Positions 2,763 to 15,605 of a stretch of DNA of 64,000 bases are shown piece after piece. The stretch is from Cetobacterium sp. NK01 (GTDB taxonomy: Bacteria; Fusobacteriota; Fusobacteriia; Fusobacteriales; Fusobacteriaceae), in assembly GCF_024506395.1 (NCBI RefSeq), contig NZ_JANIBO010000002.1:124001-188000 (forward strand), read 5' to 3'. The translations under genes and the position numbers were made by a program. Every line of letters begins with the position of its first letter. Position 1 is the stretch's first letter. The notes beneath the pieces are model-generated. The model was given only the letters and a program-made list of their open reading frames with translations. It was not told where the DNA came from and did no database searches.

Positions 2763-3965
2763 ATGTATTATTTGTTTGTTTTACTTTTTTTTATTTTTTT
2801 AGCTATTTATTCTAATTTCATAGGAAAAATTTTTGAAAAAATAAAACTTCCATCTTTAATAGGGATGATGATAGCAGGGGTTTTAATAGGTCCATATTGT
2901 TTAAATAAAACTCCTGATTTGGCTTTAACATTAGCTCCTATTTTAAAAGACGTAGCTTTAATTATTGTTTTATTTATCGGTGGTCTCGGGATAGGAGCAG
3001 ATCAAATAAAAAAAATAGGTCGGCCTGCAATACTATTAAGTATAATACCAGCTACTTTAGAAGGATTTGCTATTGCTTACTTATCAACAATATTTTTAGA
3101 TTTTACTTTTATACAAGGAGCTATTTTAGGTTTTATTATAGCTGCCGTAAGTCCTGCTGTTTTAATTCCATCTATGGTAAATTTAATAGATAAAAATATA
3201 GGACAAAAAAAATCTATTCCACAGCTTCTATTAGTGGGAGCATCTGCTGATGATAGTATCGCTATAACTTTATTTACATCATTTTTAGCTATTTATTTTC
3301 AAAAATTAGATGGAGGAAGCTTTGATTTTAAATCTCAGTTATTTCTTATACCAATATCTATATTATTTAGCTTATTAACTGGATGGGGAATAGGATTTTT
3401 AGGAAAATATAGTTATCTAAAAATAAATAACAGTATTTTAAAAACATTTACAATTTTTATGATTTGTTTAATACTTAGATTTATAGAGAATAAATTTCAT
3501 TTTTCATTGTACAACTCTTTATTAACTATAATGTCACTAGGATTTTTCATTCGTCACTACGAAGGAGAAAAGTATAAAGCTATTCATAAATCAATGAGTG
3601 AGATTTGGAAATATGGAAAAATATATCTATTTACATTTGTAGGAATGGCAATTAATCCAGGATTAGTAGGCGGGTACTTCTTCATTGGATTAACTATTTT
3701 AACATACTCATTATCTATTAGATCAATTGGAGTTTTAATTGCATTAACTGGAACAAATCTTAATTTTAAAGAAAGATTATTTTGCGTTATTGCATATCTT
3801 CCTAAGGCTACTGTACAATCTGCAAAAGCAGGAATACCTCTTCAAATGGGAGTAGTAGGAGGAGAAGTTATGCAAGCCATAGCAATTTTAAGTGTCTTAA
3901 TAACTGCCCCTTTAGGAGCTATTGGAATTAATTCAACATATGAAAAATTATTAAAGAATTCTTAA
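2763..3965 (+). CDS. CPA2-type cation:proton antiporter under a fluoride riboswitch
   Basis: The 400-residue protein is almost entirely membrane-spanning, with about 11-13 predicted helices, and resembles the Na+/H+ exchanger (KefB/NapA-like) fold. It opens with an N-terminal GKIFEKIKLPSLIGMMIAGVLIGP segment typical of CPA2 proteins. An adjacent Asp pair (D163-D164 in SADDS) matches the DD ion-binding pair of electrogenic CPA2 antiporters. There is no C-terminal TrkA-N domain, so it is a minimal transporter. The start follows AAGGAGGAG. A fluoride riboswitch lies directly upstream, so expression should rise with fluoride. The transported ion (Na+, K+ or otherwise) is not shown by the sequence. 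It may help restore ion or pH balance during fluoride stress. Confidence 0.85.
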   Translation: MYYLFVLLFFIFLAIYSNFIGKIFEKIKLPSLIGMMIAGVLIGPYCLNKTPDLALTLAPILKDVALIIVLFIGGLGIGADQIKKIGRPAILLSIIPATLEGFAIAYLSTIFLDFTFIQGAILGFIIAAVSPAVLIPSMVNLIDKNIGQKKSIPQLLLVGASADDSIAITLFTSFLAIYFQKLDGGSFDFKSQLFLIPISILFSLLTGWGIGFLGKYSYLKINNSILKTFTIFMICLILRFIENKFHFSLYNSLLTIMSLGFFIRHYEGEKYKAIHKSMSEIWKYGKIYLFTFVGMAINPGLVGGYFFIGLTILTYSLSIRSIGVLIALTGTNLNFKERLFCVIAYLPKATVQSAKAGIPLQMGVVGGEVMQAIAILSVLITAPLGAIGINSTYEKLLKNS

Positions 3966-6847: not shown

Positions 6848-8176
6848 TTATAAGAATATAAAATATCCTAATAGTGGTAGTGTTAAAATTAACACAGGTA
6901 TGTTTAACTCTTTATATCTTCCAGTTAATACCTTTATAATTACATGAGATATAATACCCATACTCATTCCAGATGCCATGTTATCTGTAAATACAGTAAA
7001 CATAATTGTAATTACAGCTGGAACAAATTCAGTCATATCGTCCATATCGATAAACTTCATACTTGTCATCATAAGGATACCTATAAAAATTAATGCTGGT
7101 GCTGTTGCAGCAGATGGAATTATATAAACAATTGGTGTTAAGAAAATTGTAAATATAAAGCAAATTCCTGTAGATATTGCAGTTAGACCTGTTCTTCCTC
7201 CCTCTTCAACTCCAGCTGCCGACTCTAAAAATGTTGTTATTGTTGTAGAACCAAATAATGCTCCAACAATAGTTGCTATAGAATCAACTAGGAAAGGTTT
7301 ATCTACTTCTGGTAAATTACCATTTTCATCTAAAAGTCCAGCTTGTGCTGAAACTCCTAATAAAGTTCCTAGAGTACAGAAGAAATCTCCTACGAAAAAT
7401 GTGAATATTAAAGGTAAAAATGCAAATTTTAATGCTCCCATTATATCAAGTTTAAAAGCTATACTAGATATTGATGGCGGCATAGAGAAAAAGCTCTCAG
7501 GTATTTGAGTTATTCCCATTGGAATTCCAAGCAGTGTAGTAATCACTATACCAATTAAAACTCCACCTCTAACTTTATTTAAAACAAGTGCAATTGTAAT
7601 AAAAAGTCCGATTAAAGATAATATAGTATTTGGATTATAAATACTTCCCATAGATATAGTTCCATTTGAAATTGTCATTATTTGACCATTTTTAAATCCT
7701 ACCATAGCTATAAAAAATCCAACAGCTACTCCTATAGCAAACTTTAAGTTTTTAGGAATCGCTTCTACAATAAGTCCTCTCAATCCGAAAACTGTAAGAA
7801 CTAAAAAACCTATTCCAGATAAAAATACCATTCCCATAGCTGTTTGCCAATTAACCATTCCTCCAGCGACTAGAGTATAAGCGAAAAATGCATTTCCCCC
7901 CATAGCTGGTGCCATAGCAAAAGGTCTATTTGTATAAAGACCCATAACGATAGAAAAGGCAGCTGATAGCAGAGCAGTTACAATAGTAACAGCTTTAACA
8001 TCCATTCCAGCAGCACTCATAAATAAAGGCTGAACTATTAAGATGTATGCCATCGTCATAAAAGTTGTAATTCCAGCAGTTATTTCTGTTGAAATCGTAG
8101 TGTTATAATGGCTAAGTTGAAAGTAAGAATCAATAGCCCTTAGCACACCATTATTCTTTTGTTTAATGTTTTCCAT
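6848..8176 (-). CDS. NCS2-family purine permease, predicted adenine transporter
   Basis: This 442-residue permease of the AzgA/PbuG/AdeQ branch of the NCS2 nucleobase transporters has about 12-14 membrane segments. Family segments include TAGITTFMTMAYILIVQP near the N-terminus, AMAPAMGGNAFFAYT, and TTFLESAAGVEEGGRTG. The family imports adenine, hypoxanthine or guanine by proton symport. The upstream purine aptamer has U at the specificity position, which favours adenine as both signal and substrate. The start codon sits behind AGGAGGAG, which touches the aptamer's closing stem. The gene stands alone with its own promoter. Confidence 0.9.
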   Translation of the reverse strand: MENIKQKNNGVLRAIDSYFQLSHYNTTISTEITAGITTFMTMAYILIVQPLFMSAAGMDVKAVTIVTALLSAAFSIVMGLYTNRPFAMAPAMGGNAFFAYTLVAGGMVNWQTAMGMVFLSGIGFLVLTVFGLRGLIVEAIPKNLKFAIGVAVGFFIAMVGFKNGQIMTISNGTISMGSIYNPNTILSLIGLFITIALVLNKVRGGVLIGIVITTLLGIPMGITQIPESFFSMPPSISSIAFKLDIMGALKFAFLPLIFTFFVGDFFCTLGTLLGVSAQAGLLDENGNLPEVDKPFLVDSIATIVGALFGSTTITTFLESAAGVEEGGRTGLTAISTGICFIFTIFLTPIVYIIPSAATAPALIFIGILMMTSMKFIDMDDMTEFVPAVITIMFTVFTDNMASGMSMGIISHVIIKVLTGRYKELNIPVLILTLPLLGYFIFL

Positions 8177-8184
8177 TACTCCTC

Positions 8185-8250
8185 CTAATAATAAGCCATT
8201 TACGGTGGCTTGTAGAAACTCCTGACCTTATTACAGGATTATATCAGTGA
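8185..8250 (-). ncRNA. Purine riboswitch, adenine-type (U74)
   Basis: On the minus strand the aptamer reads CTGATA (P1), TAAT, P2 arms CCTG/CAGG, then GTTTCTAC, P3 arms AAGCCA/TGGCTT around loop CCGTAAA, AT, and TATTAG (P1). L2 contains GG and L3 contains CC for the loop-loop contact. The base directly before the P1 3' strand (position 74 in xpt numbering, window position 8191) is U, as in adenine riboswitches, where guanine types have C. The P1 3' strand runs into the Shine-Dalgarno AGGAGGAG (8179-8186), and no terminator lies between aptamer and start. Control is therefore probably translational. For an importer, repression by adenine is expected (inference). Confidence 0.92.
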
Positions 8251-8264
8251 TAAAAATACAGACT

Positions 8265-8293
8265 ATTGTACTATATTTCACAAATTTTGTCAA
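8265..8293 (-). promoter_or_regulatory. Promoter for the adenine-riboswitch transcript
   Basis: On the minus strand TTGACA (8288-8293) and TACAAT (8265-8270) are separated by exactly 17 bases. The predicted start of transcription is about eight bases before the aptamer. Confidence 0.82.
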
Positions 8294-8494
8294 CTTTTTT
8301 GTTTTTGAGCGTCTCAAATATAAAACTAACGAATTATAGATAGCTATTTTATTTGTTTATTTTTTATTAAATTAATGATAAATAAAAATAATAATTACTC
8401 GTAATTATATATAGTTATAAAACTACATATAATGCCTCTTATCTGAAGTTTTATCAATTAAAAATAATTGTTATTTGGAATAATATTGAAAATA

Positions 8495-8523
8495 TTGTAA
8501 GTTTTTATAAAATATGAGATAAT
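8495..8523 (+). promoter_or_regulatory. Promoter for the small acidic protein gene
   Basis: TTGTAA (8495-8500) and GATAAT (8518-8523) are separated by 17 bases, about 38 bases before the chosen start codon. Confidence 0.6.
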
Positions 8524-8561
8524 AATATGATATAAAAAATATAACAAGGAGGTTTTTGGCT

Positions 8562-8975
8562 ATGTATAATGTTACAAGAGAGATGTTAATTGAAATTTTA
8601 GATGGTTATATTAAATTAGCAAAAAAATTAGATGGTGAATTAGTTGTACTAAATAAAGTTGACGACGAAGCTGATGAGTTTTTAATTGAAAATATAAAAG
8701 ATTTTAATCTTATAAAAACAAAGAAAAACGATTTACTAGAGATTACTATTTACGTTGATGACGAAGATGAGGTGTATGAAGAGTTTGTTATTGGTGATGG
8801 AAGTGATTACCAAAAAGTACAAAAAAATATTTACGAGAAATTCCCTAAGTACTTCAAAATAGGACCTCTTGAAAATAAGTCCGATTCAAAAAAATCAGGA
8901 AAAGAAAAAGAAAATATGATTAATAAAGATTCTCAAAGTAATCATTTTCAAAAATTCATGAAAAAAAATAAGTAA
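8562..8975 (+). CDS. Small acidic protein of unknown function
   Basis: I do not recognise this 137-residue protein. It lacks a signal peptide and membrane segments. Residues 1-105 look like a compact alpha/beta domain rich in Asp and Glu (DDEADEFLIE, VDDEDEVYEEF). The last 30 residues are a polar, Lys-rich and probably disordered tail. The ATG at 8562 is chosen because AAGGAGG lies nine bases upstream. An in-frame TTG at 8556 would be only three bases from it. It is monocistronic, with its own promoter and a shared bidirectional terminator. Confidence 0.7.
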   Translation: MYNVTREMLIEILDGYIKLAKKLDGELVVLNKVDDEADEFLIENIKDFNLIKTKKNDLLEITIYVDDEDEVYEEFVIGDGSDYQKVQKNIYEKFPKYFKIGPLENKSDSKKSGKEKENMINKDSQSNHFQKFMKKNK

Positions 8976-8982
8976 GTTTATA

Positions 8983-9029
8983 AAAAAGAGCAATCCCAAT
9001 ATTTTTTTATTTTGGAATTGCTCTTTTAT
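8983..9029. terminator. Bidirectional terminator between convergent genes
   Basis: AAAGAGCAAT.CCAA and TTGG.ATTGCTCTTT pair around a T-rich loop, with A/T tracts on both outer sides. It ends both the plus-strand gene at 8562 and the minus-strand Bat operon. Confidence 0.85.
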
Positions 9030-9063
9030 TTTTTTGTAATAATTATTTTTCTTAATTAATAAT

Positions 9064-10461
9064 TTATCTTTTTTTATGACTTTTATTTTTTTTTCTATCT
9101 AATACAAGATATATTATTACGATCAATTCTACTAAACATAACAAAGAAATAATTCCAAATGCCAATTTATAAATATTTTTAGCTGGAATTTTCTCTGTTT
9201 CAAGAAGTTTTATATTAACTTCTTGTAAATTATTAGTTAATTTTCCAGAAGAAGCAACTTCATCTTTATTTACCAAATTGTTATTTTCCATATTTTTTTG
9301 TATAGGTCTTTTGCTTTGTGGATTATCTATTTGAAGTTTTTCTCCTGTTACTTTTATTTCTTGTGATGGAATTATTAAATTTTCATATTTTTCTGTTTTA
9401 GTATTAAAATATGGAATAACTATTTCTGGAGTTTTTTCAATACCACCATTTTTAGGAATAAAAGCAACTTCAAAAGTTTTTTCATTATAATAGTTTTCCC
9501 CTTTGATTTCTTCACTATAATTTTTAACACTTTGGAAAACATTAAAATCATTTTGGTTTTCAATAGGTAAATTTTCGAGTAAAGCTAAATTTCCACTACC
9601 AGATAGAGTTAAATTTAAAGTAATAGCTTGTCCTACATTAACATCTTTATTTTTCCAGTTTTCTTTATAATTAAGAGTTCCAACAATATCTTTAAAATTC
9701 TTAGGAGCATCTACAGGAAGTGGCCTAATATCTATTTTCAAATTCTCTCCACCTACTAAAGTTGTATTTTCATAGAAAAAGTCTCTTGTCGGTTCCCCAA
9801 CTTTTACTTCACTTGTTGTAATATTTTTCTCGCCACTACTATTAGCTTGTAATATCCCCTTAAAGATATTAAGTTCAATTGCCTGCTTTCCATTATAATC
9901 TATTTGACTTTGTATATAACTATTGTTATTATATTTAGTTACATCTTTTACTGAAAAATCTTGAAAATTTGGTGCTTTAACTTGGGAAAATGAACTAATA
10001 TTAACAGTACTTATAAAATTTTCTTGAAACGGTATTTTTTCACCAAAATAATAAACCTTTTTTGGAATATTAGCTTTTAAAGTAAATCTATCTTGCATAA
10101 TTTCATCTAACTGTTTATTTTCCTTCACATCTATTAAAATACTTTTTTCATTACCTTTTTCAGTGATTACTTTTAATATAAACTCTCCATCTTTCTTTGG
10201 TTTTAATCTGTATACATCACTTTTAATTGATGTTGTTTTTCCATTAATAACATTATAACTATTGCTAGATCCTTTAGATAGAACATCAAAATTATCAATT
10301 CCATCTATTTTGTATCTTTCTTTGTCTTCATTTACAAAAGAAACTTCTAAATTAAAAACCTCATACTTTGAAGGAGATAAATCAGAAGAATTTAATATTA
10401 ATTCAGAAAAAGTCAACTTACAAAGCATTAACATAATTAAAAATAAATTAATTTTTTTCAT
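9064..10461 (-). CDS. batD: BatD-like membrane-anchored protein
   Basis: The 465-residue exported protein closes the Bat operon. A signal peptide (MKKINLFLIMLMLCKLTFS) is followed by a long beta-rich extracytoplasmic region of repeated immunoglobulin-like segments. A single membrane helix lies near residues 430-455, and the tail is basic (RKKNKSHKKR). This is the architecture of BatD (oxygen-tolerance protein family). The ATG at 10461 is preferred over one at 10479 because AGAGGAGAG precedes it and a signal peptide then begins at residue 1. BatD proteins are thought to scaffold the VWA proteins BatA and BatB at the membrane; the molecular function is not established. Confidence 0.8.
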   Translation of the reverse strand: MKKINLFLIMLMLCKLTFSELILNSSDLSPSKYEVFNLEVSFVNEDKERYKIDGIDNFDVLSKGSSNSYNVINGKTTSIKSDVYRLKPKKDGEFILKVITEKGNEKSILIDVKENKQLDEIMQDRFTLKANIPKKVYYFGEKIPFQENFISTVNISSFSQVKAPNFQDFSVKDVTKYNNNSYIQSQIDYNGKQAIELNIFKGILQANSSGEKNITTSEVKVGEPTRDFFYENTTLVGGENLKIDIRPLPVDAPKNFKDIVGTLNYKENWKNKDVNVGQAITLNLTLSGSGNLALLENLPIENQNDFNVFQSVKNYSEEIKGENYYNEKTFEVAFIPKNGGIEKTPEIVIPYFNTKTEKYENLIIPSQEIKVTGEKLQIDNPQSKRPIQKNMENNNLVNKDEVASSGKLTNNLQEVNIKLLETEKIPAKNIYKLAFGIISLLCLVELIVIIYLVLDRKKNKSHKKR

Positions 10462-10472
10462 TCTACTCTCCT

Positions 10473-11213
10473 CTACCATCTATTTTCACTATTTTTATTT
10501 TCAGTTGTGTTTAAAACTCTCTCATTATTTTTAAAAGCCTGCTTTTCATTTCCTTCAAGTCTTTGCATAATACTTCTCAACTCTTCTTCTTTTTGTTTCA
10601 TAGCTTTTTCTTCCTGAGTTAATTCTTTTGGAGCACTACCACCCTTTTGCTCTTGGTTTTGTTGTTTTTTATTTTGTTCGCTATTATTTTGTTGATTATC
10701 TTTATTTTCTTGCTGGTCCTGATGGTTATTTTGTTGACTCTGTTGATTGTTTTCTTTATTATTTTGGTTTTCATCTTGCTTTTGATCACTCTGTTGATCA
10801 TTTTTTTTCTCTTGATTATTTTCTTCATTTTGTTGATTATTGTTTTGAGAATCTTTTTTATTTTCTTGATTATTTTGCTGGTCTTGATTGCTTTGTTGAT
10901 CTTGATTATTTTGCTGATCTTGTTGCTGTTTATCATTTTTTTGTTCTTTATTTTTCTGATCCTGCTTTTTCTGTTGATCGACTTTATTCTTTATAATTTC
11001 AAAATTCTTTTTAATATTTATATCTTCATTAGTATTCATAGCTAGTTTATATTCTTCTAAAGCCTCTTCATTTTTATTCTCTTTTACTAAAGAATTACCT
11101 TGGATAAACTTTAAATATCCAGATTCCTCAATAGACCTTTCTTTTTTCAATTTTAAAATACCAAAAATAATTAGTGCAATCCCAAGAAGAAGAATTAATA
11201 TTTTTTTAAACAT
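10473..11213 (-). CDS. batC: BatC-like protein with giant Gln/Asn-rich tract
   Basis: This 246-residue protein has an N-terminal membrane helix (MFKKILILLLGIALIIFGIL). A short TPR-like segment follows (about 30-70: FIQGNSLVKENKNEEALEEY). Residues about 77-195 are almost entirely Gln, Asn, Lys, Asp and Glu. The C-terminal segment (about 195-246) is a charged helix with LTQEEKAMKQKEEELRSIMQRLEGNEKQAF. The TPR-like unit, the position between batB and batD, and the C-terminal helix fit the BatC/TPR family. The low-complexity tract is unusual and is encoded by CAA/AAC/AAT-type repeats, which may be prone to length change. It overlaps batB by eight bases. Confidence 0.72.
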   Translation of the reverse strand: MFKKILILLLGIALIIFGILKLKKERSIEESGYLKFIQGNSLVKENKNEEALEEYKLAMNTNEDINIKKNFEIIKNKVDQQKKQDQKNKEQKNDKQQQDQQNNQDQQSNQDQQNNQENKKDSQNNNQQNEENNQEKKNDQQSDQKQDENQNNKENNQQSQQNNHQDQQENKDNQQNNSEQNKKQQNQEQKGGSAPKELTQEEKAMKQKEEELRSIMQRLEGNEKQAFKNNERVLNTTENKNSENRW

Positions 11214-12168
11214 ACTCCCCCTCCTTCTCTTTTTTTCTTAAAAAATATCCTATAAGTATTAATAATAAACCAACTCCCAAAGGATACTGATAATAATGCT
11301 CATAAACATTTAATTTTTCATCTCTTTGAGATGTTTTATCTAATTTACCGATATCTTCTATTAACTTTTTATAATTACTTGTATTTAAATTATTTAAAGA
11401 ATAATACTGTCCTCCACTCTCTTTAGCTAATTCTTTTAAAAAACTATCGTTTAATTTAGATACAACTATATTTCCTTTATCATCCTTTATAAATCCATTA
11501 TCTATTGGAATTACACTACCTTCATCTGTTCCTACCCCGAATATAAAAGTTTTTATATGATTCTCTTTAACATATTTTAAAATTTCAGGATTTTTTTCAC
11601 CACCATCTGAAAAAATAATTACATTTTTATCTTTTGCATCTGTTTTTTCAAAAGAACTGTTAGCCAGTTTTAAAGCTTCTAAAAGTTCTGTTCCACCACC
11701 TGATATAAGTTTACTATCAATTGCGTCAATATAATTTATAGCCATAAAATAATCATCAGTTAAAGGCATTTGAACATATGCACTATCAGAAAACGGAATA
11801 ATCCCTATTCTATCTCCTTTTAAATTATTTAAAATATCTTTAAGTTCTTTTTTGCTTATCTCTAATCTATTTGGATAAGTATCTTCGGCTAACATAGATT
11901 TAGATATATCCATAAGGATATATAAATCGCTTCCTTGAACCTCTATTTTCTCCTCTTCTTTTAATTTTTGAGGTGAAAGTAATGCTAAAAATACTAAAAT
12001 TGCACCAATGGAAATAAAAAAAGTTTTAATAATCATTATTAAAGTATCTTTCTTCCACCCTATTTTTTTTAGTATTTTCTCTCTTTTTATTACTCCTAAT
12101 ATTAAAAATAAAATAGTTAAAATAGGGATAACTACAAATTTAATACTAGATATGTTTCCAAATTCCAT
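11206..12168 (-). CDS. batB: BatB-like von Willebrand factor A membrane protein
   Basis: The 320-residue protein has two N-terminal membrane helices (about 8-25 and 48-68), a VWA domain (about 80-270) and a C-terminal helix (about 295-312). The metal-ion-dependent adhesion site is intact: DISKSM (DxSxS), with the Thr in the SGGGTELLEAL region and SDGGEKN. BatA and BatB are paired VWA proteins in aerotolerance operons, probably acting as metal-dependent protein-interaction platforms at the cytoplasmic membrane. It follows GGAGGGATAGTT spacing and sits 11 bases after batA. Confidence 0.85.
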   Translation of the reverse strand: MEFGNISSIKFVVIPILTILFLILGVIKREKILKKIGWKKDTLIMIIKTFFISIGAILVFLALLSPQKLKEEEKIEVQGSDLYILMDISKSMLAEDTYPNRLEISKKELKDILNNLKGDRIGIIPFSDSAYVQMPLTDDYFMAINYIDAIDSKLISGGGTELLEALKLANSSFEKTDAKDKNVIIFSDGGEKNPEILKYVKENHIKTFIFGVGTDEGSVIPIDNGFIKDDKGNIVVSKLNDSFLKELAKESGGQYYSLNNLNTSNYKKLIEDIGKLDKTSQRDEKLNVYEHYYQYPLGVGLLLILIGYFLRKKEKEGEYV

Positions 12169-12179
12169 AACTATCCCTC

Positions 12180-13139
12180 CTAAGGTATTCTTATATATTT
12201 AAAATATTCGAAAAATATACCTAATAATAATAAAGCTAAAGCAATTTTTAACAATTCTTCGAAATATTCTGTTATATCATAAATACTTCTGCTATCAATT
12301 TTACTTTTCTCCAAGTTATTAATTTCATTAAATATATTTTGAAACTCTTTAGAATCACTCGCTCTAAAATATTTTCCATTTGTTTTTTCTGCAATAGTAT
12401 TTAACAAATTTTCATCAAGTTCTTTATTTTCAATATAAGATGTTCCAAAAAATCCAGCTACTGGAATCTCTCTTGCTCCTATTCCTATTGTATAAACTTT
12501 TATCCCAAGGTCTTTTGCAACTTCTGCAGCACCTATTGGGCTCATCTCTCCTGAATTATTTTCTCCATCTGTCATCAATATAACAACTTTAGATTTTGAA
12601 TCAGAGTCTTTTAATCTATTTAAAGCTACTCCTAATCCCATACCTATGGCTGTTCTATTATTACTAGTTATATCATCTGTTGTTATATTAGAGATCATAT
12701 TTTTCAATACGCTATGATCAAAAGTTAAAGGAACCTTAGTATACGCTTCTCCTCCAAATACAACTAAGGAAAGTCTATCATTAGGTCTTTTATCAATAAA
12801 CTCCTTTAACAATTCTTTGGATTTTTCTAATCTATTGGGATTGAAATCTTTAGCTTCCATGGATTTAGAAAGATCTAAGGCTATTGCTATATCTATTCCA
12901 TCTTTTTTTACAACTTTTCCCTCTGTTGTTAGCTGAGGTCTTGCTAGAGCTAAAATCATAAATATAGCTGAAAGATATATAAACATTCTTCCTAATAGAT
13001 GTTTTTTACTTCCTTTTGAATATTTTTTTATAATTTGTATTCCTGGAACCTTGATAGCACCCTGAGATCTTTTTCTAAAAAAAAGATAGGTAACTATAGG
13101 AATCAGTATTAATATATATGGCATCTTAAAGTTATACAC
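12180..13139 (-). CDS. batA: BatA-like von Willebrand factor A membrane protein
   Basis: This 319-residue paralogue of the next gene has an N-terminal membrane hairpin (about 5-20 and 50-70), a VWA domain with the MIDAS motif DLSKSM and TDGENNSG, and a C-terminal helix near 295-315. It starts with GTG at 13139, preceded by AGGAGA, and overlaps the upstream gene by eight bases. An in-frame ATG at 13124 lacks a ribosome binding site. It is likely an interaction partner of the MoxR ATPase and BatB, as in other MoxR-DUF58-BatAB operons. Confidence 0.85.
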   Translation of the reverse strand: MYNFKMPYILILIPIVTYLFFRKRSQGAIKVPGIQIIKKYSKGSKKHLLGRMFIYLSAIFMILALARPQLTTEGKVVKKDGIDIAIALDLSKSMEAKDFNPNRLEKSKELLKEFIDKRPNDRLSLVVFGGEAYTKVPLTFDHSVLKNMISNITTDDITSNNRTAIGMGLGVALNRLKDSDSKSKVVILMTDGENNSGEMSPIGAAEVAKDLGIKVYTIGIGAREIPVAGFFGTSYIENKELDENLLNTIAEKTNGKYFRASDSKEFQNIFNEINNLEKSKIDSRSIYDITEYFEELLKIALALLLLGIFFEYFKYIRIP

Positions 13140-13839
13140 TGTTCTTTTTCTCCTTTCTTAATCTCTCTACTATTTCAAAGGCTCTTCTTTTATATTCTAA
13201 ATAATCTCCACCTCTATTTGGAGAAAATTTTAAATAATCCATATCTTTAACAAACATTACATCTTCTTGTGTCAATGGTGAAATAACAGTGTATTCTCCA
13301 CCTAAAAAATTAGTTCCATACATATTATCTATGTATTTTCTAAGTTCTAAACTAATTTTCTCTCTCCAATTATCATCATTAACTTTTGACATTCCTTTTT
13401 TAAATATTATATAAGGATTTTTAGATCTATCAACTAAATGCATAAAAAAAGCTGTTATAATTGCTATAGCACCAGCTATAGTCGCTAAAATTCCCATATG
13501 AGGATAATCCTTTTCAATATAGATATTATTTGGATTTGAAAGCGCTTCATATATCTCTTTTTCAGAGGGCTCTATCGTTGAAACTACATCGATTTTTAAC
13601 TTTTTATTTCCAAGTTGAATCTCATTTTCTCCGACCTTATATGTTGTAAATGTTACAATATAATCTCCTTTTTTATCCTTAGATAATGAATCTATTTTAT
13701 AATCTTCTAAAGATTTTTCAATATCATTTTTGCTAATATCTCCCTCTATTTTCAAAGTTATTTTATCACCTATATTATATGTTTTACTAAAAGCCAGGAG
13801 AGAAACTAAAAGAAAAATACTAAAAATTATTTTTTTCAT
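13132..13839 (-). CDS. Exported membrane protein in the MoxR/Bat operon, function unknown
   Basis: The 235-residue protein has a signal peptide (MKKIIFSIFLLVSLLAFS), a beta-rich periplasmic segment (about 19-110) and one membrane helix (about 115-138). It ends in a cytoplasmic domain of about 95 residues with a conserved-looking DYLKFSPNRGGDYLEYKRRAFEIVERLRKE end. Position between DUF58 and BatA matches the small membrane gene often found there in Bat operons. I cannot assign a biochemical role. It overlaps the DUF58 gene by four bases (ATGA) and batA by eight, so translation is tightly coupled. Confidence 0.72.
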   Translation of the reverse strand: MKKIIFSIFLLVSLLAFSKTYNIGDKITLKIEGDISKNDIEKSLEDYKIDSLSKDKKGDYIVTFTTYKVGENEIQLGNKKLKIDVVSTIEPSEKEIYEALSNPNNIYIEKDYPHMGILATIAGAIAIITAFFMHLVDRSKNPYIIFKKGMSKVNDDNWREKISLELRKYIDNMYGTNFLGGEYTVISPLTQEDVMFVKDMDYLKFSPNRGGDYLEYKRRAFEIVERLRKEKKNSV

Positions 13840-14666
13840 CGCACTCTACCTCTATTAAAAAATTTTGATATCTCCTTTACGTAATCTTCTCCAACGTATA
13901 GATTTATCCCATTATAAATATTATTAATATTTATATCACTACTATTTTCTTTGTAGTTTTCAACCACTATCTGTTCTCCTGTCTCTGCATCTTCTAGAGT
14001 AAAAATAGCTCCTATTGGAAGAGACTCATATTTTTTATCTCCTATTCTAACTGGTATAATTTCATGCCTTTGAGAAAGTATTTTTAACTCTTTTTCATAA
14101 TTTTCATCTAAAAAATCTGATATTAAAAATATAATAGATCGTCTTTTAAAAACTTTTCCAAAATATCTCAAAGCCATTGATATATCAGTTTTATCTCCTT
14201 TAGGATTAATTGTAAGAAGATTTTCAATTATAGAAAGGGTATGTTTCTTTCCTTTTTTTAAAGGTATCACTCTTTCTATTTCGTTTGAAAAAAATAAAGC
14301 ACCTACTCTATCTCCATTTTTATTAGCACTAAATGCCAAACTTCCAACAAGTTCTGTTATAAGATCCAACTTCTCCTTAAATCTATTAGAAGCTGATATA
14401 TCTACTAATAAGAAAACTGATAATTCTCTCTCCTCAACAAACTCTTTTACATATGCTTTTCTCTGCTTTGCTGTAACCTTCCAATCAATTTTTTTTACAT
14501 CATCTCCTGGAGCATATCTTCTAATATCAGAGAACTCCATACCATTTCCTTTTAAACAAGATTGGTATTGTCCTGCAAAAATATTATCAGATAAAATAGT
14601 AGCTTTTATTTCGATATTCTTTATCTTTTTTAAAAGTTCTTTTTTACTCTCTAATTTATTATCCAT
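13836..14666 (-). CDS. DUF58 domain protein of the MoxR operon
   Basis: The 276-residue soluble protein carries the DUF58 signature at about residues 42-80 (FSDIRRYAPGDDVKKIDW, then ARKRKAYVKEFVEERE-like sequence) followed by a VWA-like region (LLVDISASN). DUF58 proteins are regular neighbours of MoxR ATPases and are probably their substrates or adaptors. There is no membrane segment. It begins nine bases after moxR ends and overlaps the following gene by four bases. Confidence 0.87.
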   Translation of the reverse strand: MDNKLESKKELLKKIKNIEIKATILSDNIFAGQYQSCLKGNGMEFSDIRRYAPGDDVKKIDWKVTAKQRKAYVKEFVEERELSVFLLVDISASNRFKEKLDLITELVGSLAFSANKNGDRVGALFFSNEIERVIPLKKGKKHTLSIIENLLTINPKGDKTDISMALRYFGKVFKRRSIIFLISDFLDENYEKELKILSQRHEIIPVRIGDKKYESLPIGAIFTLEDAETGEQIVVENYKENSSDININNIYNGINLYVGEDYVKEISKFFNRGRVR

Positions 14667-14675
14667 AGTCTCTCC

Positions 14676-15605
14676 TTATGGTAAAATAACTGTTTTTAAT
14701 ATATCATCTATTATGTCTTCCACTTTTTTATCCTCAGCTTCAGCTTCATATGTTAAAATAAGTCTATGACGTAAAACATCATAAATAACTTTCTTTATAT
14801 CTTGTGGCATTACAAAGTCCCTACCTTCCAAAAATGCCGCTGCTTTAGAAGCTATAACTAAACTTATACTTGCTCTAGGGGAAGCCCCACATGCTATATA
14901 ATCAGAGTGCTCTCTAGTTTTAAAAACTATATCTAAGATATATTTTTTTAGTTTTGAATCTATGCTAACTTTTTTTATTGTTTCTTTTATCTCTTCTAAA
15001 TCTTCTAAAGTAACTATTGTTTCAATAGATATATCTGAAAACTCTTTCTCACCCGTTAATAAATCTAAGATCTCCATCTCCTCTTCATAAGTTGGATATT
15101 CAATTTTTACTTTCATTAAAAATCTATCTTGTTGTGCTTCTGGTAGAGGATATGTACCATCTTGTTCAATAGGATTTTGTGTAGCAAGCACTATAAATGG
15201 TTTATCTAATTTAAATGTTTCATTCGCTATTGTAACTTGCTTTTCTTGCATTGCTTCTAAAAGTGCTGATTGAACCTTTGCAGGAGCTCTATTTATTTCA
15301 TCTGCAAGAACAATATTGGCAAATATCGGACCTTTTTTTACACTAAATTCTCCTGTTTTTTCATTATACATCTCTGTACCTATAATGTCACTAGGTAGTA
15401 AATCTGGAGTGAACTGAATTCTTGAAAAACTTAGTCCTAGAGTTTCAGATATAGTGTTTACTGTTAATGACTTTGCCAATCCAGGAAGTCCTTCTAATAA
15501 AATATGATTTCCTGTTAAAATTCCAATTAGAATTTTCTCTACCATATCTTTCTGTCCAATTACCTTTTTAGAAATCTCATTTTTTAAAGTATTAATTCTT
15601 TCCAT
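14676..15605 (-). CDS. moxR: MoxR-family AAA+ ATPase
   Basis: This 309-residue ATPase is first in the seven-gene operon. Walker A is GLPGLAKS, Walker B is VLADEINRAPAKVQSALLEAMQE, and sensor 1 lies in LATQNPIEQDGTYPLPEAQQDRF. The C-terminal lid domain spans about 215-305. MoxR AAA+ proteins act as chaperone-like machines that activate or insert metal into VWA-domain partners, here presumably DUF58, BatA and BatB. The start ATG follows AGGAGG. Confidence 0.93.
   Translation of the reverse strand: MERINTLKNEISKKVIGQKDMVEKILIGILTGNHILLEGLPGLAKSLTVNTISETLGLSFSRIQFTPDLLPSDIIGTEMYNEKTGEFSVKKGPIFANIVLADEINRAPAKVQSALLEAMQEKQVTIANETFKLDKPFIVLATQNPIEQDGTYPLPEAQQDRFLMKVKIEYPTYEEEMEILDLLTGEKEFSDISIETIVTLEDLEEIKETIKKVSIDSKLKKYILDIVFKTREHSDYIACGASPRASISLVIASKAAAFLEGRDFVMPQDIKKVIYDVLRHRLILTYEAEAEDKKVEDIIDDILKTVILP

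Follow-up and report, generated by a model that had tools for sequence, protein, structure and literature searches.

The NCS2 permease gene in the window (the whole 64-kb stretch of DNA that was analysed, from Cetobacterium, a bacterium of the fish gut) is preceded by an adenine-type purine riboswitch that is probably a translational OFF switch of the direct-occlusion kind, controlling an importer of a purine, probably adenine. We infer adenine as the ligand, the OFF direction and the import of adenine from the anatomy of the leader, its orthologs and the relatives of the permease, as set out below. To the wider view that the P1 helix itself is the ribosome gate, without an expression platform, and that the genus holds two opposite adenine sensors (importer OFF at translation, add ON at transcription), we give roughly even chances.

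Architecture of the permease leader

The cmscan search of the 64-kb window returned a single purine riboswitch (RF00167, E 4.1e-8; Table 1). An earlier note on this DNA had described a complete purine-aptamer core with a U at the specificity position, and both descriptions hold: J1/2 (UAUAAU) and J2/3 (GUUUCUAC) are canonical, the GG of L2 faces the CC of L3, and position 74 is U, J3/1 being AU (8192-8191) against AC in the Rfam consensus. U74 is the mark of adenine-type purine riboswitches, and it is found in the leader of the window as in 11/11 leaders. P1 consists of six pairs formed by CUGAUA (8247-8242) with UAUUAG (8190-8185); its 5' strand can be extended by UC (8250-8249) across a bulged A8248, and beyond the core the Rfam alignment shows two further non-standard pairs. 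The proposed overlap of the P1 3' strand with the start of the Shine-Dalgarno (SD) sequence was confirmed, as UAUUAG and AGGAGG share an AG that places two of the six SD bases inside core P1. The SD is followed by the spacer AGUA (8180-8177) and the AUG at 8176, with 8 nt separating G8185 at the end of P1 from A8176 of the start codon.

No terminator-like site was detected between 7600 and 10200 of the window, in agreement with the absence of a terminator that had been noted before, and the downstream gene indeed encodes an NCS2 permease. A -10 element is present upstream of the orthologs too. The transcription start inferred from consensus lies at 8257-8259, 6-8 bases past the -10 box, which puts P1 about 10-12 bases away instead of the approximately eight bases given in the earlier note. 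Two Cetobacterium somerae records (705 and 664 kb) match the 107 bases around the aptamer without a difference, and the remaining two matches of the plasmid search with this 107-base query are of the C74 type.

The permease adjoins a gene cluster for BatD, VWA, DUF58 and MoxR ATPase proteins (9064-15605, minus strand; names from the C. somerae record). Elsewhere in the window, a fluoride riboswitch (RF01734, 2666-2724, plus strand, 56.6 bits) precedes a cation/proton antiporter gene (2763-3965, PF00999); a terminator-like repeat and a T run come immediately after the riboswitch.

Table 1 Features of the permease locus, in window coordinates.
Feature	Position	Strand	Evidence
Promoter-like site TTGACA-17-TACAAT	8265..8293	-	Consensus scan, 11/12 matches
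Purine riboswitch aptamer, RF00167 match including flanks	8169..8266	-	61.0 bits vs gathering 37
P1 5' strand CUGAUA	8242..8247	-	Rfam alignment; 6 core pairs standard in 9/9 distinct leaders
P2 stem-loop, L2 GG = 8227-8226 (loop-loop contact)	8220..8238	-	Two P2 pairs with two-sided changes
P3 stem-loop, L3 CC = 8205-8204	8193..8211	-	Three P3 pairs with two-sided changes
Specificity base U74, J3/1	8191	-	U vs Rfam consensus C; column invariant in 11/11 leaders
P1 3' strand UAUUAG; final AG = first AG of SD	8185..8190	-	Sequence; invariant in 11/11 leaders
Shine-Dalgarno AGGAGG	8181..8186	-	Sequence; invariant in 11/11 leaders
NCS2-family permease, 442 aa	6848..8176	-	PF00860, 118 bits, cut-off 27; C. 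somerae record 'NCS2 family permease'

Conservation and covariation of the leader

A search of 61 genomes found near-full-length orthologs of the permease (at least 78% identity) in 12, counting that of the window, namely ten Cetobacterium genomes and two of the sister genus g10; one additional Cetobacterium genome holds only a permease fragment whose start lies off the contig. All but one of the 12 full orthologs (11/12) have the fused arrangement of U74 aptamer and SD. The resulting 11 leaders, nine of which are distinct, agree without exception in UUAUUAUUAGGAGGA; sequence variation is seen ahead of P1, after the SD and around the AUG.

Standard pairs occupy 97.5% of the cells in the nine distinct leaders, and the loop GG/CC pairs are invariant. 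Five pairs changed on both sides, compared to a mean of 2.0 in shuffled alignments (0/500 as high) and 0-1 when the pairing was slid, in statistics that treat the nine distinct leaders without regard to relatedness. All five of these pairs fall in P2 and P3. The P1 core shows a change from G-U to A-U in one leader, and two of the eight pairs of the extended P1 vary, on one side only, and the outermost pair is broken in one leader; as five of the eight are invariant, covariation tests P1 weakly.

Predicted control of translation by P1

In the proposed mechanism, the six-pair, A/U-rich P1 would be marginally stable in the ligand-free RNA, leaving AGGAGG reachable by the 30S subunit. Adenine filling the three-way junction would clamp P1, with the first two SD bases paired and the remaining SD abutting the helix; in most leaders the rest of the SD could additionally pair with a pyrimidine-rich 5' end, a stretch that is missing in L057. 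Initiation would then fall and adenine would cut importer synthesis, with no terminator, antiterminator or separate sequestor required.

This mechanism was compared to folding computations, which omit tertiary contacts and the ligand. When P1 was enforced, mean SD openness decreased in 10/10 leaders folded with 30 nt of coding sequence and in 8/10 with 60 nt, several of the falls being small. The P1-formed ensembles were 0.2-3.5 kcal/mol above the full ensemble, suggesting that P1 is within reach of the energy of ligand binding. The predicted ligand-free openness of all six SD bases was only 0.003-0.66, so that the computed contrast is modest. Openness of the AUG moved with the opposite sign and rose in 9/10 leaders with 30 nt and in 8/10 with 60 nt.

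The rise in AUG openness is caused in part by a start-codon hairpin, UUAUUAUU-AGGAGG-AGUAAUGG, on which an alternative explanation can be built: in an adenine ON switch, the ligand-free P1 3' strand would pair with the start-codon region, and adenine would form P1 and free the AUG. The hairpin excludes P1 and amounts to -1.9 to -2.2 kcal/mol in 6/9 distinct leaders, and the known add switch is described as ON in the available text of PMC8191784. We nevertheless consider this explanation unlikely. The hairpin is lost in 3/9 distinct leaders (L052, L056 and L059; 0.0 or -0.1 kcal/mol), whereas P1 and the SD are kept in all; it shows no compensatory change, it holds the AUG in its stem and displays the SD in its loop instead of hiding it, and ON logic for an importer would amount to positive feedback. 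As this hairpin was the sole candidate, no structure shared by the nine distinct leaders was found that would sequester SD and AUG without ligand, and no terminator competing with the aptamer, as in ON switches of the add/pbuE type, was found in 7600-10200. Another hairpin at the coding start (UAAUG/CAUUA) was discarded because, by inspection, it is not present in all orthologs.

The single ortholog that lacks the fused arrangement offers a natural comparison. L058, from genome G031 of the sister genus, encodes a permease 80% identical to that of the window and branches outside the remaining target clade (98/82). Its short leader contains TTGACA, TACAAT and AGGAGG, and the riboswitch scan listed no aptamer match in it. 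That a close ortholog carries a bare SD suggests that the aptamer acts as an additional brake and not as an activator that the gene requires, and the same promoter boxes and AGGAGG without an aptamer suggest that an activating partner is not needed. Taken together with the loss of the start-codon hairpin in leaders that keep P1 and SD, and with the importer context, this favours the OFF direction, and the ON switch ranks below it.

A second alternative is that the aptamer binds adenine and that most of the control comes from mRNA decay or from termination by Rho once translation is blocked or slowed. Such additions are noted for direct-occlusion switches in the accessible part of PMC10907184, and no intrinsic terminator was found at the locus (7600-10200), yet decay or Rho would add to SD occlusion and not replace it, and we regard this as distinctly improbable as the main route. 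Least likely is a relic aptamer, or one for a different purine, with the U74/adenine assignment failing, since compensatory changes preserve the structure and U74 is invariant across 11 genomes, although the ligand is predicted from sequence and J1/2 is altered to UAUAGU in L056.

The permease and its relatives

The phylogeny, built from 43 NCS2 proteins, pairs the target clade (100/100) with a sister group of permeases from the genomes G006, G009 and G017, which are 52-54% identical. The sister permeases of G006 and G017 are encoded directly behind ade (adenine deaminase), with TIGR01178 over its cut-off in both; a frame is also present upstream of the G009 permease, the scan having covered G006 and G017 only. 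Both Escherichia coli pairs, AdeP/AdeQ and GhxP/GhxQ, are placed outside, so it is the gene neighbourhood alone that points to adenine as the substrate. A substrate assignment from these four proteins was dropped because the tree does not decide it. Judged by its sequence and surroundings, the permease is probably a purine importer, with adenine as the likely substrate. Ten other permeases in the tree are led by aptamers; all ten are C74 and outside the target clade, in line with the earlier statement that permease riboswitches are mostly guanine-type.

Purine riboswitches across Fusobacteriota

An exact pattern comprising J2/3, L3 and a nearby GGAG, which would miss other loop letters, gave hits in 19 of the 98 Fusobacteriota genomes, and eleven of these matches are the target permease. 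Within the 98 genomes and for this exact pattern, no fused U74 arrangement was found beyond the target permease. The matches L090, L091, L092, L094 and L096 were rejected as C74 aptamers that have another SD and gene start beyond them, L095 proved not to be an aptamer, and L078 and L093 were set aside on the printed match alone. A wider U74 pattern, which skips the target leader itself and is no census, had among its matches U74 at add in G005 and a U74 aptamer (L160, G092:C116:326-363) that lies ahead of a purL-like frame, with a terminator-like stretch.

The 3.1-Mb genome of the window contains 11 purine riboswitches, and up to 17 were counted in one relative. Two of the 11 carry U74, the target and that of add (L008), and the other nine carry C74. 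Downstream of eight of these nine, a candidate terminator and its U run can be made out by eye (weak in L040). In the C74 aptamer L010 (G000:C1:398498-398595), located before a nucleosidase-like gene, no terminator was seen by eye; AGTTTTG and CAAAACT could pair around its SD, and it is perhaps also translational. L002 (G000:C2:28767-28864) is a C74 riboswitch closely resembling the ade riboswitches of G002 and G006; no ade lies downstream within 3.1 kb, and it is possibly orphaned.

The Cetobacterium gene add (adenosine deaminase) is present in 7/12 genomes and has a U74 aptamer in 7/7 (L008, L153-L159), with J2/3 and L3 letters that depart from the consensus. In all seven leaders, the 3' strands of the aptamer are built into a hairpin of roughly -30 to -33 kcal/mol, and a U run comes after it. 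The add riboswitch is thus predicted to be an ON switch like pbuE, in which ligand binding should prevent the terminator. Judging from this anatomy, with add ON and the importer OFF, adenine would increase expression of the deaminase and decrease that of the importer.

Comparison with known systems

Both the Vibrio vulnificus add and the Bacillus subtilis pbuE riboswitches carry U74. Direct translation attenuation was defined by Barrick and Breaker, with the start codon at most 15 nt from the end of the aptamer core, in a paper (PMC2258182, available in part) that places the ribosome-binding site (RBS) of SAM-I in the 3' side of P1 and counts switches by mechanism in a figure. For the Tte preQ1-I switch, a single RBS base in the aptamer can suffice, according to the available sections of a 2024 review (PMC10907184), whose list of direct-occlusion classes, in those sections, does not include purine. 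A P1 of at least 4 bp is needed for efficient binding, as cited in the accessible text of the add study (PMC8191784). Within the literature searched, mostly outside subscription journals and partly available, we found no purine-class direct-occlusion switch. The mechanism is a known one, direct translation attenuation; what may be new is its occurrence in the purine class, and an earlier example is possible given the partial coverage of these sources.

Why direct control through an RBS within the aptamer is not commoner in other classes is a puzzle raised by Barrick and Breaker (PMC2258182, in the part available). The present locus offers a natural case of about 90 nucleotides whose switch bases do not vary and whose aptamer fold is among the best studied, and adds to it a natural aptamer-less sister and a U74 partner of opposite logic within the genus. 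Its simplicity makes it suitable for determining to what extent the closing of P1, by itself, governs ribosome access.

The closest systems by ligand are V. vulnificus add (translational ON; PMC8191784, seen in excerpt) and B. subtilis pbuE (transcriptional ON; PMC12268651, likewise). They belong to the same aptamer class as the target, and add shares translational control with it; however, both switch ON by means of a separate sequestor or terminator, whereas the target has no conserved element of this sort, its P1 continues into the SD, its gene encodes an importer and OFF is predicted. The direct-occlusion switches (SAM-I, TPP, preQ1-I/II, SAM-II and SAM-III) resemble the target in having the RBS inside or against the aptamer, and the 8 nt measured here are within their limit of 15 nt to the start codon, but they have other aptamer folds and ligands, and in the parts available neither PMC2258182 nor PMC10907184 names the purine class among them. 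The C74 riboswitches of NCS2 permeases (L007/L110 of the window's genome among them) share the fold and the protein family; unlike in the target, where L3 is 22-23 bases from the start codon, this distance is 83-161 bases, a terminator follows in L007 and the permeases lie outside the target clade. The riboswitch of Cetobacterium add shares U74 and the genus with the target and differs from it by the strong terminator on the 3' strands of its aptamer and by its predicted ON direction.
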